Assembly (NCBI GenBank): GCA_026387965.1
Contig: JAPLKR010000091.1
Coordinates: 1-11,292, forward strand
Source: Fusobacteriota bacterium
Lineage (GTDB): Bacteria > Fusobacteriota > Fusobacteriia > JAPLKR01
Length of the DNA stretch: 11,292 nt
Direction of reading: 5' to 3'
The position numbers and the translations under genes were made by a program. The notes beneath the pieces are model-generated. The model worked only from the letters and a program-made list of their open reading frames with translations, was not told the DNA's origin and did not search any database. This document shows, piece by piece, positions 4,041 to 11,292 of this stretch (position 1 is the stretch's first letter; each line of letters opens with the position of its first letter).

Positions 4041-4682
4041 ATGGGACACTTAAAAAAAAATATTAAGTCTAATTTAATACTAGGTTTTTTTGCAGTATTG
4101 CCGTTAACGATAGTTGTTTTTTGCTTATATTTCATTTATAATTTTATCTATCATATCGTATCGCCATTTATCAATATTTTTAAAATAGACTCGATCATTT
4201 TAAAAAATCTCATTGTACTCGCATCAATAATTGTATTTTTAATTATAATTTTCATTCTCGGACTCTTAATGAGAACACGACCAGGAAGATTTTTGTGGAA
4301 GCATTTAGAGAGTGCAACGCTTGAAAAAATTCCAGGATATAAAGCTATTAATGAGACTGTCTCACATTTTAAAAAATCTGATGAAAAAGAAGGGGCATTT
4401 CAACAAGTAGGGTTTCTAGACCCTTACGGAAGTGATGCCTTGATGATTGGATTTATTACAGCAGAAACAGATGAACGTTACACGGTGTTTGCTCCTTCAA
4501 GTCCCAATCCTACAAGCGGATACGTCTATCATATAAAAAAGGACAAATTTTTGCTGCTTAAAAATACCAAAATGGATGAGGGGCTTCGTGCTATTATCAG
4601 TTGTGGTATAGGAACAGAATATTTAGAAGAGGGGATCGAAAGTATGATCGAATCGAGGAAGGGAAAATGCGAAACTTTATAA
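4041..4682 (+). CDS. DUF502-family membrane protein, copy 1
   Basis: A 213-residue protein of the DUF502 (COG2928) family, which has no established bacterial function; plant relatives are the COV/LCV proteins. Two hydrophobic segments are visible, at about 11–36 and 54–77, followed by a basic RTRPGRF patch. Then comes the family-type block LEKIPGYKAINETVSHF (94–110) and a soluble C-terminal half ending with an ISCGIG motif. It is probably an inner-membrane protein with the C-terminal domain in the cytoplasm. AAGGAG at 4031–4036 directs the ATG. It is the first of three consecutive paralogs; its last 16 bp overlap copy 2, indicating translational coupling. The family assignment is firm, the role unknown. 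Confidence 0.88.
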   Translation: MGHLKKNIKSNLILGFFAVLPLTIVVFCLYFIYNFIYHIVSPFINIFKIDSIILKNLIVLASIIVFLIIIFILGLLMRTRPGRFLWKHLESATLEKIPGYKAINETVSHFKKSDEKEGAFQQVGFLDPYGSDALMIGFITAETDERYTVFAPSSPNPTSGYVYHIKKDKFLLLKNTKMDEGLRAIISCGIGTEYLEEGIESMIESRKGKCETL

Positions 4683-5317
4683 AAACAACTTTTATTTATG
4701 GGGTATTTGCAATACTTCCGCTTATTTTACTCTATATAATTCTAAAAGTAATTTATGACATTATAGGTATTTTTACCACGCCCACTGTAGAACTCCTCGG
4801 AATTGCTAGAATAACTCACAGTTATTTTTTAGGAAATATCATTTTAATTATTTTTTTAATTATTGTGGCTTTTATCATTGGAATATTTTTACAAACCTCA
4901 ATTGGAAAAATTTTATTTGAAATATTAGAAGAAAAAATTTTCAAACTACTCCCAGGCTATTCAATTCTAAGAACTGCTGCAAAACAATTTGGCAGTGAAA
5001 ATGAAAGTATTGGTAGTGGAACAAAAGTAGTACTTGTAAGTCTTTTTGATTCACAAACTCTTTGTACAGGTTTTCTTGTAGATGATTCAAATGTAACTCT
5101 TAAAACTATATATATTCCCAGCGCTCTACATCCATTTCAAGGTACTTTCTATTTAATTCCTACTGAAAGAGTTTTCATCTTAAATGATGTTAAAACTGAA
5201 GAAGGTTTTAAAAGTGTAATTGCCTGTGGTGTGGGAGCAGATAAATTCAATAGAATGATAAAAGTTCAATATGAGGAATTTTTAATGAAAAAAGGAGGGG
5301 CCATTGAAGAACAATAA
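4667..5317 (+). CDS. DUF502-family membrane protein, copy 2
   Basis: A 216-residue paralog of its neighbours with the same plan: hydrophobic segments at about 9–33 and 54–75, LLPGYSILRTAAKQF at 94–108, and the C-terminal ACGVG motif. The frame is open back to an ATG at 4601, but the extra 22 residues (MWYRNRIFRRG…) read through the conserved ISCGIG end of copy 1 and have no counterpart in the other copies. The ATG at 4667, preceded by AGGAAGGG at 4656–4663, places the family's basic–hydrophobic N-terminus right at the start. The sequence differs widely from copies 1 and 3, so the duplication is old rather than a recent tandem event. Function unknown. Confidence 0.87.
   Translation: MRNFIKTTFIYGVFAILPLILLYIILKVIYDIIGIFTTPTVELLGIARITHSYFLGNIILIIFLIIVAFIIGIFLQTSIGKILFEILEEKIFKLLPGYSILRTAAKQFGSENESIGSGTKVVLVSLFDSQTLCTGFLVDDSNVTLKTIYIPSALHPFQGTFYLIPTERVFILNDVKTEEGFKSVIACGVGADKFNRMIKVQYEEFLMKKGGAIEEQ
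5291..5306 (+). promoter_or_regulatory. Strong ribosome-binding site that decides a TTG start
   Basis: AAAGGAGGGG at 5291–5300 followed by TTG at 5304–5306. The site lies inside the 3' end of the preceding DUF502 gene. The nearly ideal Shine–Dalgarno probably compensates for the weak initiation codon. Confidence 0.75.
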
Positions 5318-5930
5318 AAATAACTTTGTAAAATCTAGTTTTATTCTTGGTCTTCTTGCAATCATTCCGATTGTAGTAATTTTTTTATTTTTCCAAATTA
5401 TTCTTAATATGGTCCTTTCTGTTTGTTGGCCACTACTTCATAGCTTTGGTGTAGATAGAATTATTGGAGATTATTTATCAGCTATTTTATCCTTAATTAT
5501 TATATTGGTAATATTATATGTCATTGGCGGATTTGTTAAGACAAGTTTCGGGCTTAAATTCTTTGAATTTGTAGAAGAGTCGATGTTTATCCATCTGCCG
5601 GGATATAAAAAGCTTAAAACAGTCATCATGCAATTTCAAAAAAGTGATGCTAAAAAAATGTTTGAAAGAGTCGCTGTTGCTGACATATTTGGAACTGGTG
5701 TATACAATGTTTGTTTTATTACAGGAGAATCAGTTAGCCGCTTTGTAATATTTGTGCCTACATGTCCACAACCGATAGCGGGGTTCTCATATTATTTATC
5801 AAAAAGCAGAGTAATTATTACAAAGAATATTCAGCTACAAGAAGCTCTTAGAACAACAGTAAGTTGTGGTGTGGGTACTGGCAAAATAATTCAAGAAGTT
5901 TTAAATGCAACACGAATCAATGTCCGATAA
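5304..5930 (+). CDS. DUF502-family membrane protein, copy 3 (TTG start)
   Basis: A 208-residue third paralog: hydrophobic segments at about 12–38 and 57–78, HLPGYKKLKTVIMQF at 97–111, and the C-terminal SCGVG motif. Translation must begin at the TTG at 5304, because it is preceded at the right distance by a very strong ribosome site, AAAGGAGGGG (5291–5300), and gives the same short basic N-terminus as copies 1 and 2. The start overlaps the end of copy 2 by 14 bp. No hairpin terminator follows it, so transcription could continue into the flavoprotein gene 62 bp downstream. Function unknown; co-translation of three copies suggests they could form a hetero-oligomer, which is my inference. Confidence 0.87.
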   Translation: MKNNKNNFVKSSFILGLLAIIPIVVIFLFFQIILNMVLSVCWPLLHSFGVDRIIGDYLSAILSLIIILVILYVIGGFVKTSFGLKFFEFVEESMFIHLPGYKKLKTVIMQFQKSDAKKMFERVAVADIFGTGVYNVCFITGESVSRFVIFVPTCPQPIAGFSYYLSKSRVIITKNIQLQEALRTTVSCGVGTGKIIQEVLNATRINVR

Positions 5931-5992: not shown

Positions 5993-7261
5993 ATGACACA
6001 AAATCTGATCTCTTATGATATTATTATTGCAGGAGCTGGCCCAGCGGGTCTTCTTCTTGCTAGTGAGCTTTCTGAAAAGTATTCTATCTTATTGTTAGAA
6101 AAGAACAAAATTGGTACTACCAATAAAAGTTGGTTAACTTATAAAGATCGTTTTAAACGTCTTGGCTTTTCTGATTCTTTTATTCTAAATGAATTCAAAC
6201 AGTGGAATTTTAAAATTCAAAATAGTGAACTCTGTATCGAAGATAATTATATCTGTATCGATGAGTCAAAATTTTTGCTTTATTTAAAAGATATAGCATT
6301 TAAAAATGGTACAGTATTTCTTGAAGATACTCCCCTCACGTCCTATGCGTACACTGCAAATTCAATCAGTGTAAATAATAAATATAAATCAAAATTGTTA
6401 ATTGATTGTTGCGGCATCAATTCTCCCATTCTTGAAAAGAACAAACATTTAATTAAAGAGTCATTATATATTAACTGTTATGGGTATATTGGTGAGTTTG
6501 AAAATTTAGACAATAATAACTACTATACTATGTATGACGAAGGTCTTGACAAAATCTCATGTTTTGGACTAACAAAAATTGCTCCCTCTGAAGCTTTTAT
6601 TCTGTTTCTTACTTACTCTACGGAAAAGTCAAATTTCAAAGATTATGAAGAACGTATCCAAGCTGGCCTAAAAATCCATAATGTACCACCACATAAGCGC
6701 GTTAGAGATAAAATAGCTAACTACCCAACTCATGAGCTGAAATGTATAACTCTCGATCATATTGTACTTTTAGGAGATTCTGCGTCGTCATCTCCTGCAT
6801 TTAGTGGCATGGGATTTAACGAATGCCTTAGACGCTATAAATATTGGTCCAATTTTATCGATACGTGGTTGGAAAATGGAAAGTATAAGAAAAGAAACTT
6901 GAAAATTCCCAAAGATTATGCGCGTTCTTTTAATAAGCTTTTATTTGAGATGTTTGCAATACTCGTTATCCATGCAAATATAAATATTATGGAGCATCTC
7001 ATGAATGCTACTAAATATATCAATCCAAAACATTTACGACTCATTATGAGAAATGAAGTTTCTGAAAAAGAAGTAATTGATATGATTAAAGGTCTTTTTA
7101 AAGAACACGCTTTTTTAGAGTTTATAAAAACTCTTGATACGGTTACTTTAATTAAAATATTACGTTTAACCTCTAAACTCTCTAAAAGCTTAACTTTAAA
7201 AACACTCTATAATTTAGTACATCCACACCATAAAATTTCTCTGCATGACATTTATAAATAA
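5993..7261 (+). CDS. FAD-dependent oxidoreductase, lycopene-cyclase/geranylgeranyl-reductase-like
   Basis: A 422-residue flavoprotein. The N-terminus has a Rossmann dinucleotide fold: YDIIIAG leading into GAGPAG (14–19), with the acidic residue that binds the ribose at E36. A second FAD-contacting motif, HIVLLGDSASSSPAFSGMGF (256–275), carries the Gly–Asp pair of this superfamily. The middle block YGYIGEF (163–169) followed by FGLTKIAPSEAFILFLTYS recalls the layout of lycopene beta-cyclases, so the substrate may be an isoprenoid or another hydrophobic compound. This is a fold-level assignment; I see no carotenoid gene nearby, and the true substrate is unknown. TAAGGAG at 5977–5983 gives the ATG at 5993. 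It lies tail to tail with the NRPS gene, so a shared role in a natural product pathway is possible but unsupported. Confidence 0.75.
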   Translation: MTQNLISYDIIIAGAGPAGLLLASELSEKYSILLLEKNKIGTTNKSWLTYKDRFKRLGFSDSFILNEFKQWNFKIQNSELCIEDNYICIDESKFLLYLKDIAFKNGTVFLEDTPLTSYAYTANSISVNNKYKSKLLIDCCGINSPILEKNKHLIKESLYINCYGYIGEFENLDNNNYYTMYDEGLDKISCFGLTKIAPSEAFILFLTYSTEKSNFKDYEERIQAGLKIHNVPPHKRVRDKIANYPTHELKCITLDHIVLLGDSASSSPAFSGMGFNECLRRYKYWSNFIDTWLENGKYKKRNLKIPKDYARSFNKLLFEMFAILVIHANINIMEHLMNATKYINPKHLRLIMRNEVSEKEVIDMIKGLFKEHAFLEFIKTLDTVTLIKILRLTSKLSKSLTLKTLYNLVHPHHKISLHDIYK

Positions 7262-7588: not shown

Positions 7589-7632
7589 AAAACAAGCTTA
7601 AACCTTTGAAATTAAAGGTTTAAGCTTGTTTT
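7589..7632 (-). terminator. Long perfect hairpin terminator of the NRPS gene
   Basis: Arms 7589–7607 and 7614–7632 are perfect 19-bp reverse complements with a 6-base loop (GAAATT). On the plus strand the hairpin is preceded by a run of seven A (7586–7592) that partly overlaps the left arm, so read on the minus strand it ends in a T-run, as expected for a terminator. It begins about 75 bp after the NRPS stop codon. A short T-run also follows on the plus strand, so it may work in both directions as a back-up for the terminator at 7514–7538. Confidence 0.85.
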
Positions 7633-7706: not shown

Positions 7707-10700
7707 TTAACCTAACAATGCCATAATTTTCATATACTGCTCTTTTTTGGTCATCTCATCTTTTAAAATATTAAATAGTAATTCAGGATTTGAAAACGCA
7801 TATTCTTTTATTTCTTGAGCCGATACTTCTAATATGACAGTTTCATACAAGGCTTCGGCAGTATAACTTGCTTTTTTTTGCTCAAACAAATTAAATGCAC
7901 CAAGAATTGATGAATCACCATAGAGTCCAACTGACCTTATCCACCCACCTGAAATACTTTGTAAAATCTCTACAGCTCCTTCAATAACAACATACAGTTT
8001 ATTATCACGATTGCCCTCTTTGAATATCTCCATATTAATATTATAATTTTTCAATGCCATTTTTTTACCAATACTTCTTATTAGAGTTTCATCTAATGTA
8101 TAAAAAATTGGAACTTTAGATACTAATTGATATCTTTTCTGGAATGCATCATCTACCATTCCTAATAAATCATTCCCTTGAATTTTATACCAAGTAAATC
8201 CTAAGTTAGATAAAATCATATTGGTTTTTTCTCCTTGACAAACTATCAATGTTTTTTCACTGTCTTCATCTAACCACCCAAAATGTAACATAAATTTATT
8301 GATATAATCTTCAAAAGCCTTCGCTGAAAAATTTGTATGAAGTATCTTTAGGAACTCATCTATTCCTAGCTTATTAAAGTGGATTTTTTCAGTAGTATTT
8401 GATAAGCACTCAATAATTGATGTCATATCAGGAGAATATAAATGAAAACACTGATTTTGAAGTTCTCTTTTATCAAATAGTAACGTTATCCCTTTTGCAG
8501 TATAGTCAACGCAAGACATCTCTGCACTTGAAAAAGTTTCACATAAACATCCTAAATTAAGGGCTGATTTAATTGTATGAAAAAATGCATTGTCCTCTAA
8601 ATTTTTTTGGTGCTTTTTTGTTTGTGAATTAAATACTAAATTTCCAATACGATAAATTGATGTATTAATCCCTAATTCTCTGGCTCTAACAGTCTCACGC
8701 TCACCTTCTAATTTTGTTTGTATGTACACATTATCTGATTCAGGTAGAGAATAAATATCATCATCTTCGGAAAATGCTGAATATTTGGTACCTTCTATGT
8801 TAAGTGCATTGATAACTGAACTAGTAGATACATAGTGAAAATCCTTTTTAATACCTTCAAGTGCTAATTCGATAAGACGTTTCACTGGTATAACATTATC
8901 ATGATAAAATTTATCATACTCTCCATAATGCCCAACATTGGCAGCGCAGTGAATAATACTTTCAACACTCTCTGCTAATATTGAATAATTGTGTGGCACA
9001 ACACCTAATTTTTCATCGGATAAATTTCCAGAAAACACAACAACTCTGGTTTTGTATTTTTTCAATGATTCACCAAAATATTGTTGATATGTTATTTCAG
9101 TTCTTTCAAAAGCATCAACATCACTTTTACCACGGACAATACAATAAACTTTTTTATCACTTTCTTCTAAGAGTCTATTCAATACATGAGATCCTAAAAA
9201 ACCAGTAGCTCCTGTTAATAGTATAGTATTAACATTTGAAGAAGTGTAATTTATACCACGTGAGTTTTCCACTGATTTTTGATACTTCTTGTTAGCTAGC
9301 ACTAAATACTCTTTAAACTCATCAGAATTTGAAAGTTCAATAGATTTTTGAATTCGATTTTTTATTGATGTAAATTTATCCATCAAATCATATTTTTGAG
9401 TTTCTGTGTTATCCAAAAGCTCTCTAATAGTTTTAAATTTAAAGTTATCAGTAACAGCGATATTAAACCCATTAGACTGTAATTTAACAGTAAGTCCTAC
9501 TGCTTTTAATGAATTCACACCTAAATCATTGAAGTTATCATCAATGCCAACCTTTTTCATTCCTAGAACCTGCGCATATATTTTAGCTACTGTTGCTTCT
9601 GTTTCATTTCTTGGAGCAACATATTCAGTTTTAATCGTCATTTCAATTTTTGGAATTGGAAGAGCTTTTCTATCTACTTTACCATTAGGGGTTAAAGGGA
9701 AGTTTTCCATATGTACAAATAACGTTGGAACCATGTATTCAGGCAGATTTTTTTCCAGTTTTTCCTTTAATTCTTCAATGGATTCAGCTTCCCTAGATAC
9801 ATAATACCCTACTAAGTACTTCCCACGTATTTCATCATCTATAGCTAAGATTGCTACATCTTCTATCGAACCAATTTCAAGCATTCTGGACTCTATTTCG
9901 CCTATCTCTATTCTAAACCCTCTTATCTTTACCTGGTGATCTATCCTTCCTATTATTCTAATTGTACCATCAAAACAGTACTGTGCTAAATCCCCTGTCT
10001 TGTATAATCTTTCATACCCTCTCTCACTATTAAAGGGATTCTTTACAAACACTTTTTCTGTTAACTCTGGTTTCTTATAGTAACCTGCTCCTACTCCTAA
10101 ACCTGAAATACACAACTCTCCAGAAATTCCAAAGGGTAAGAGATTCATGCTACTGTCAACTATATATATGCCCGTGTTTGTTTTGGGCATTCCAATAGGA
10201 ATATTATCTTCATAATGTTTTACATCATAACATGTTGCGTATAATGTGCATTCGGTAGGGCCATATCCATTGATGAATCTATAATTTCTGGGAATAAATT
10301 TTCTGAGTTTTTCACCCCCTGTATCCAAACATCTTAGGCAATCACTATCATATTCTTCCATATATTGTTCTGCAAGTTGAGTTGTAAAAAAAATTGATAC
10401 AACTTTGTTTTTCTCAATATAATTATGAATTTCATGAAGTGAAAGTCGTATCTCATCTCTAATAATATGTATCGCCGCTCCGACTGTTAACGTAGGAAAT
10501 ACTCCTATTATATGGGCGTCAAAACTAAAACTTGCGTGCACTGCAACAGATTCTCCGTATTTAATCCCTCTGTCTCCTCTGATCTCATCTACAAAGCACG
10601 CTATATTCCTATGAGTAAGTATTGCTCCTTTAGGTTGTCCTGTTGTTCCACTCGTGTATATTAAGCAAAAATACTCTTCTAAATCCTCTTCACGCTCTAT

Positions 10701-11292
10701 ATCTTTCGCAGTTAACTCATATTCGAACTCTTTTGCATCTATATACTCTCCTGAGTACGAAACCGTCTTTATTAGACTCTTTTCACTTATTAAGCATAGC
10801 GATTCACTATCTTTCAACATATACTCTATTCTATCTAATGGGTATTTTGAATCTATTGGGCAGTACGCTCCTCCTGCTTTTTGTATAGCTAACATTGCTA
10901 CTATTATCTCTATATCGCGTCCTAACAATACGCCTACAAAGCGATTCTTACCTACACCTCTACTTCTCAGCTCTTTTGCTAAACTGTTTGCCATCCCATT
11001 TAACTCTGAATAGCTTACTCTTCGTTCACCGCATACTACTGCTACTGCTTCCGGTTCCTTTTTTACTGAATCTTCAAATTGTTTTATTATACTGCGTTCT
11101 TTATACTCCTCGCCTCCTCGTGAGAAATGACTTAGTATATACTCGCGTTCCTCTTCTGTTATCATCTCTACTTCTGAGATGGTTTGATTCTCAAACTCTA
11201 ATATATTTTCTAATACCTTTATATAGTGTTCTTTAAACCGTTCCATCGTTTCTCGTTGGAATAGTGATGTCTTATAGTTTAATGTAAAATTC
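7707..11292 (-). CDS. NRPS, terminal part: (C)–A–T–thioester reductase–CAP_ED-like domain (5' end beyond window)
   Basis: The frame runs open through the right edge. An in-frame ATG at 11246 is internal, because the 15 codons before it (NFTLNYKTSLFQRET) and the residues after it are the typical end of a condensation domain. Residues below count from that Met (1179 visible). Adenylation domain about 55–530: A3 YTSGTTGQPKG, A5 NGYGPTE (326–332), A7 YKTGDL (415–420), A8 GRIDHQVKIRGFRIE, A10 NGKVDRK (521–527). Carrier domain: DNFNDLGVNSL, phosphopantetheine Ser579. Thioester reductase about 672–1000: GATGFLG (679–685) and catalytic YIQTK (Tyr841, Lys845), which would release the peptide as an aldehyde or alcohol using NADPH. 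The C-terminus (about 1044–1160) looks like a cyclic-nucleotide-binding fold, an unusual fusion. The stop is at 7707–7709 and a strong hairpin follows. The peptide product cannot be told from one module. Confidence 0.95.
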   Translation of the reverse strand, partial: NFTLNYKTSLFQRETMERFKEHYIKVLENILEFENQTISEVEMITEEEREYILSHFSRGGEEYKERSIIKQFEDSVKKEPEAVAVVCGERRVSYSELNGMANSLAKELRSRGVGKNRFVGVLLGRDIEIIVAMLAIQKAGGAYCPIDSKYPLDRIEYMLKDSESLCLISEKSLIKTVSYSGEYIDAKEFEYELTAKDIEREEDLEEYFCLIYTSGTTGQPKGAILTHRNIACFVDEIRGDRGIKYGESVAVHASFSFDAHIIGVFPTLTVGAAIHIIRDEIRLSLHEIHNYIEKNKVVSIFFTTQLAEQYMEEYDSDCLRCLDTGGEKLRKFIPRNYRFINGYGPTECTLYATCYDVKHYEDNIPIGMPKTNTGIYIVDSSMNLLPFGISGELCISGLGVGAGYYKKPELTEKVFVKNPFNSERGYERLYKTGDLAQYCFDGTIRIIGRIDHQVKIRGFRIEIGEIESRMLEIGSIEDVAILAIDDEIRGKYLVGYYVSREAESIEELKEKLEKNLPEYMVPTLFVHMENFPLTPNGKVDRKALPIPKIEMTIKTEYVAPRNETEATVAKIYAQVLGMKKVGIDDNFNDLGVNSLKAVGLTVKLQSNGFNIAVTDNFKFKTIRELLDNTETQKYDLMDKFTSIKNRIQKSIELSNSDEFKEYLVLANKKYQKSVENSRGINYTSSNVNTILLTGATGFLGSHVLNRLLEESDKKVYCIVRGKSDVDAFERTEITYQQYFGESLKKYKTRVVVFSGNLSDEKLGVVPHNYSILAESVESIIHCAANVGHYGEYDKFYHDNVIPVKRLIELALEGIKKDFHYVSTSSVINALNIEGTKYSAFSEDDDIYSLPESDNVYIQTKLEGERETVRARELGINTSIYRIGNLVFNSQTKKHQKNLEDNAFFHTIKSALNLGCLCETFSSAEMSCVDYTAKGITLLFDKRELQNQCFHLYSPDMTSIIECLSNTTEKIHFNKLGIDEFLKILHTNFSAKAFEDYINKFMLHFGWLDEDSEKTLIVCQGEKTNMILSNLGFTWYKIQGNDLLGMVDDAFQKRYQLVSKVPIFYTLDETLIRSIGKKMALKNYNINMEIFKEGNRDNKLYVVIEGAVEILQSISGGWIRSVGLYGDSSILGAFNLFEQKKASYTAEALYETVILEVSAQEIKEYAFSNPELLFNILKDEMTKKEQYMKIMALLG

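Follow-up and report, generated by a model that had tools for sequence, protein, structure and literature searches.

A cyclic-nucleotide-binding-like domain fused to the terminal reductase of an NRPS and recurring in distantly related bacteria

Control of NRPSs is thought to act mainly via gene expression and substrate supply. An NRPS gene in the stretch of DNA analyzed here (the window, 11,292 bp, which is the complete contig C135 of a Fusobacteriota genome of 1.79 Mb in 141 contigs) raises the question of whether release of the product could be controlled as well: a sensor-like domain is fixed on its release domain, which suggests post-translational control of the final NRPS step. We asked what this domain is, whether it occurs elsewhere, and what it might do.

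Domain architecture of the window NRPS

The gene (7707 to 11291, minus strand, as are all its domains) is an open frame of 1,194 aa, truncated on its 5' side by the contig edge. It encodes the C-terminal 51 residues of a condensation (C) domain (11136 to 11288; PF00668 positions 405 to 455), an adenylation (A) domain (10077 to 11078; PF00501, 3.3e-70), to which an AMP-binding_C match adds, a thiolation (T, carrier) domain with LGVNSLKA (9411 to 9593; PF00550, 8.6e-9), and a terminal thioester reductase (R) domain with TGATGFLG and YxxxK (8127 to 9242; PF07993, NAD_binding_4, 4.1e-45). Since the C-domain residues overlap and precede the listed ATG at 11246 and run off the contig, this ATG is not the true start, which lies beyond the contig. 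A perfect 19-bp inverted repeat with a 6-nt loop (7589 to 7632), a probable terminator, follows the stop. The best sequence matches of the R domain among solved structures were 6vtj, 4u7w and 4f6c, and a fold search with the R domain and its tail returned 4w4t (E 2.6e-26). The archaeal T-R structure 6vtj aligned up to "LSNLGFTWYKI", immediately N-terminal of the tail, showing that the R domain is complete. Having A, T and then a complete R with TGxxGxxG and YxxxK, the window protein has the composition of an R-terminated NRPS; it would be the last module, and its product is predicted to be an aldehyde or alcohol, released through reduction with NAD(P)H.

The preliminary description had proposed that the frame runs on from the reductase into a fused CAP_ED domain, to be compared with PF00027. 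Indeed, reading the frame from 11291 to the stop at 7707 revealed neither a stop nor a frameshift between R and the tail, and the tail comprises a linker helix, MVDDAFQKRYQLVSK (8115 to 8159), and a CAP_ED/cNMP_binding domain, here called CNB (7710 to 8114); the coordinates given earlier were thus right to within about 60 bases of 7710 to 8159. PF00027 matched significantly, at E values from 1e-10 to 4e-12 (1.3e-10 with the full protein, 7.6e-12 with the last 157 aa, and 4.3e-12 at 7800 to 8048 in a genome-wide search), with scores of 41.6 to 46.6 bits that exceed the curated cut-off of 27.5. Among PDB sequences the top matches were Crp/Fnr regulators (E 5.7e-7). The top NCBIfam match was a family 2B encapsulin with a CNB (5e-8), at 32.5 bits against a family cut-off of 400. 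An AlphaFold2 model of R-CNB from a 24-row alignment (pLDDT 86, pTM 0.87) had, in its CNB part at a moderate pLDDT of about 55 to 81, the element order expected of a CNB: helices, beta strands, a short helix like that of a phosphate-binding cassette (PBC), and the B and C helices. Modeled alone from three sequences, the CNB reached a pLDDT of 47, too low for this model to be used. The matches listed by the R-CNB fold search were R domains and other Rossmann-fold reductases, so this search was uninformative on the CNB. No HTH was seen after the CNB, either in the protein end or in the downstream frames; the protein stops after a short C helix and does not have the C-terminal HTH of a Crp/Fnr transcription factor. 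With no HTH or other output domain behind the CNB, its sole output in cis would be the R domain.

Other genes in the window include three similar-looking membrane proteins in a row (4041 to 5930; DUF502 by Pfam for the first only) and, convergent with the NRPS, an FAD-dependent oxidoreductase similar to geranylgeranyl reductase or lycopene cyclase (5993 to 7261), possibly a tailoring enzyme. A fragment at the contig edge (1 to 213) resembles the C terminus of an IS30-type transposase, although Pfam gave no match to it at 1e-3. At its end, contig C67 of this genome (G000) encodes a free-standing condensation-like protein, an MFS exporter and the opening portion of an NRPS condensation domain (L038, 12171 to 15303). 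Its MFS protein is 39% identical to that of an R-CNB NRPS locus described below (genome G156), where the MFS gene lies two genes ahead of the NRPS and a free-standing condensation-like protein is also found; the 5' end of the window NRPS is therefore probably on C67. Another NRPS start in this genome (L041, 3592 to 5445; contig C1) encodes a formyltransferase domain, an unassigned stretch and an A domain that is truncated where the contig stops.

Occurrence of the fusion in other genomes

A profile scan of contigs with an R-domain alignment headed by the window R-CNB yielded 80 loci with an R domain, and at two of them the match also spans a CNB: L048 (JAKPTH010000542.1, unclassified MAG) and L049 (JAIETT010000240.1, Burkholderiales-labelled MAG). 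These two served as the profile for later whole-genome searches. Full-length R-CNB was detected in 5 of 39 genomes of a small phylum (three copies in G193, two each in G149, the source of L048, and in G156, and one each in G192 and G187). A second lineage contributed five genomes: that of L049, G501 and G632, drawn from the same class, and G833 and G837, from the order of G501, each with a single copy. The search for further fusions that had been suggested for this locus thus yielded 14 more proteins, all with the CNB terminal and from distantly related bacteria, which brings the total to 15 with the window. Three of these NRPSs were scanned whole by Pfam, and each had several C and A domains and ended in T-R-CNB. 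The frame is uninterrupted in 14 of the 15 genes, with ORFs of up to 5,194 aa in other assemblies; the copy at L049 (also L158) has an in-frame TAA within the profile match, reflecting decay or an assembly error.

The fusion was not found in 398 Bacillota genomes, though 13 of them carry a related R domain, nor in 98 genomes of the window's class other than its own; among 389 broad relatives the R-CNB profile matched in the window genome only, and none of the plasmid R domains searched spans a CNB. We conclude that R-CNB is a real, conserved enzyme type, and neither an artefact nor a one-off.

Conserved residues, ligand site and history of the tail

We aligned the 15 fused CNBs and compared them with 25 other CNBs, mostly from Crp/Fnr-sized proteins. 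The linker Arg, one Gly, a Gly-Trp in the beta4-5 flap and the Glu in "TAE" were invariant in all fused tails, and an Ala in the linker was present in 14 of 15. The Gly-Trp (7941 to 7946 in the window, minus strand) marks the fused domains: it was present in 15/15 of them and in 0/25 of the others. Furthermore, the C-helix end of the fused CNBs is hydrophobic, LxxL[IV][IV], and the Tyr and Lys of R were unchanged in 11/11 R-CNB proteins aligned. The window protein combines a terminal R with a CNB that has the linker Arg, the Gly-Trp flap and the invariant Glu, the features by which we propose to define an R-CNB NRPS family.

In cyclic-nucleotide sensors, the phosphate is held by two PBC residues, Glu and Arg (Glu72 and Arg82 in CRP). 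At the corresponding positions, assigned by eye on the alignments, the window tail has Ala twice, and its PBC, GDSSILGAFNLFEQKKASYTAEA (7851 to 7922, minus strand), is thus degenerate, without the canonical Glu or Arg of such a sensor. The Arg is missing at its site in all 15 fused CNBs, which have Ala, Ser or Val there, while it is kept in 16 of the 25 others; the Glu was found in 7 of the 15. Since the aligned Arg is missing throughout, a literal cyclic-nucleotide sensor is unlikely, and so is a classical cAMP gate in the window protein, as judged from these alignments. The cyclic nucleotide that had been considered as a ligand was not borne out at this site, in the window or in the other 14 proteins. 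In four fused CNBs an Arg precedes the aligned position by one residue, and these may have a shifted phosphate site. Between related pairs, dN/dS was 0.05 to 0.15 for the CNB and 0.06 to 0.12 for R, indicating strong purifying selection on both. A constraint on the CNB about equal to that on the catalytic R argues against a passenger domain.

In a tree of 54 R domains, the R-CNB proteins were scattered within one clade (support 100/100), mixed with tailless R domains. A single R-CNB clade in this tree was rejected (p-AU 6e-8). The CNB tree, built when 11 fused CNBs were known, placed all of these together to one side of a branch whose support is modest (69/81), a weak signal of a single origin with which the common linker and Gly-Trp motif agree. 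The simplest reading of these trees is one ancient fusion followed by repeated loss or transfer, so that the tail would probably be ancestral and would have been lost or replaced repeatedly. The same clade also contains many R domains that lack a tail yet presumably work; release as such thus does not require it.

Replacement was seen in four proteins of this clade, in which PAS and histidine-kinase ATPase domains follow R in place of the CNB: three in G151 (L054/L189 on contig C4, L159 on C61 and L160 on C257) and one, with two PAS domains, in G528 (L184 on C6). Their H-box, read by eye, is HDIRSP. On a Cysteiniphilum plasmid, a gene for a PAS protein lies immediately after an R-terminated NRPS. 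We regard this recurring association of release domain and sensory module as the best indirect evidence that the tail has a signaling role. We found no report of a kinase fused to R in the literature searched. Two loci in Clostridia MAGs (L103, 2156 to 6265, and L120) encode A-T-R fused to an iron-containing alcohol dehydrogenase (PF00465), as read from Pfam for L103 and from similarity for L120; this fusion suggests release directly to the alcohol.

Possible roles of the tail and comparison with known systems

Any role of the tail has to accommodate what is directly established: the fusion, its recurrence, the purifying selection, the family-specific invariants and the missing Arg of the cyclic-nucleotide site. 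Having no output domain of its own, the CNB would act in cis only on R (or T), or would be a dimerization or docking surface. With moderate confidence, we propose that it is a cis-acting regulatory or docking domain on reductive release, without a canonical cyclic nucleotide. The CNB would be a fixed, functional part of R that regulates or positions it; its partner might be an effector other than a canonical nucleotide, a partner protein, or its own R or T domain, contacted via the Trp flap and the linker Arg. Reductive release could thereby be coupled to a cellular state. Release as the controlled step, the ligand and the direction of signaling are parts of this proposal that we infer. A broader idea, which we put forward tentatively, is that the NRPSs with R-CNB and those with R-PAS-histidine kinase are signal-coupled lines, in which cellular signaling would either switch the release of a peptide aldehyde or receive a report of it, and an ancestral tail would later have been lost or swapped. 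No conserved signaling partner was found among the genes that neighbor R-CNB NRPSs. Some clusters share MFS exporters and NRPS genes, and the others have no obvious regulator in common.

The tail could instead sense nothing and serve as a structural element, a homodimerization or docking surface that keeps the assembly line in one piece or anchors it to a partner. The conserved positions fit such a function, as they are the surface-loop Trp, the linker Arg and the C-helix end and not the residues of the cyclic-nucleotide pocket, and CRP dimerizes via its C helix. However, the C helix is short here, and the PAS-kinase tails that substitute for the CNB in related R domains point to signaling; we consider a purely structural tail rather unlikely. 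A true cyclic-nucleotide gate on release is improbable: despite the CAP_ED profile match and the Glu retained in nearly half of the family, the Arg is missing at its aligned site in every member and the window lacks the Glu too, and members that do not bind cyclic nucleotides are common in the CRP/FNR superfamily.

Less probable still is a chance fusion with the remnant of a Crp/Fnr gene, carried along neutrally. In its favor, tailless R domains are numerous and the fused CNBs are divergent (24 to 25% identity between lineages), but fifteen recurrences under purifying selection with family-specific invariants speak against it, and no remnant of an HTH was seen after the stop. Together with the replacement by PAS-histidine kinases, this conservation favors a regulatory role over that of a passenger. 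The window itself is one contig of a fragmented assembly, broken inside the NRPS, which would invite suspicion of misassembly or misbinning. Since other assemblies have the same architecture in large uninterrupted ORFs, an artefact is refuted for the architecture, and we give this explanation a negligible chance.

If the broader idea of signal-coupled lines is true, a release enzyme and a sensor or signaling module are united within one protein. T-R-CNB is a compact unit of about 640 residues that is suited to testing control of release. In addition, the family points to NRPS clusters in lineages that have received little study, and more members are easy to find by its conserved motif.

Both R-terminated NRPSs and CNB domains are familiar, and what appears to be new is their fusion as a conserved family: in the open-access literature searched, which leaves most subscription papers outside, we found no paper describing it, in agreement with the earlier remark that the architecture has no standard precedent. 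The window R domain shares its fold, NAD(P) motif, Tyr/Lys pair and position after T with those of AusA (4f6c), MxaA (4u7w and 4w4t) and the archaeal T-R protein (6vtj). Nearly all R domains compared end within a few to about 110 residues without a CNB, whereas the window R continues into the linker helix and CNB. PF00027 is common to the tail and the CAP_ED domains of Crp/Fnr regulators of the CRP, FNR, ArcR and PrfA type; unlike these, the tail has no HTH and no PBC Arg, has the Gly-Trp flap and linker Arg, and is joined to a biosynthetic enzyme. Family 2B encapsulins also carry a CNB on a protein that is not a regulator, but theirs is a shell protein and not an NRPS. An enzyme-linked CNB that works in cis is also known from mycobacterial Pat, a CNB-acetyltransferase gated by cyclic nucleotides; Pat binds cAMP via a canonical cassette, whereas the window tail has no such cassette.
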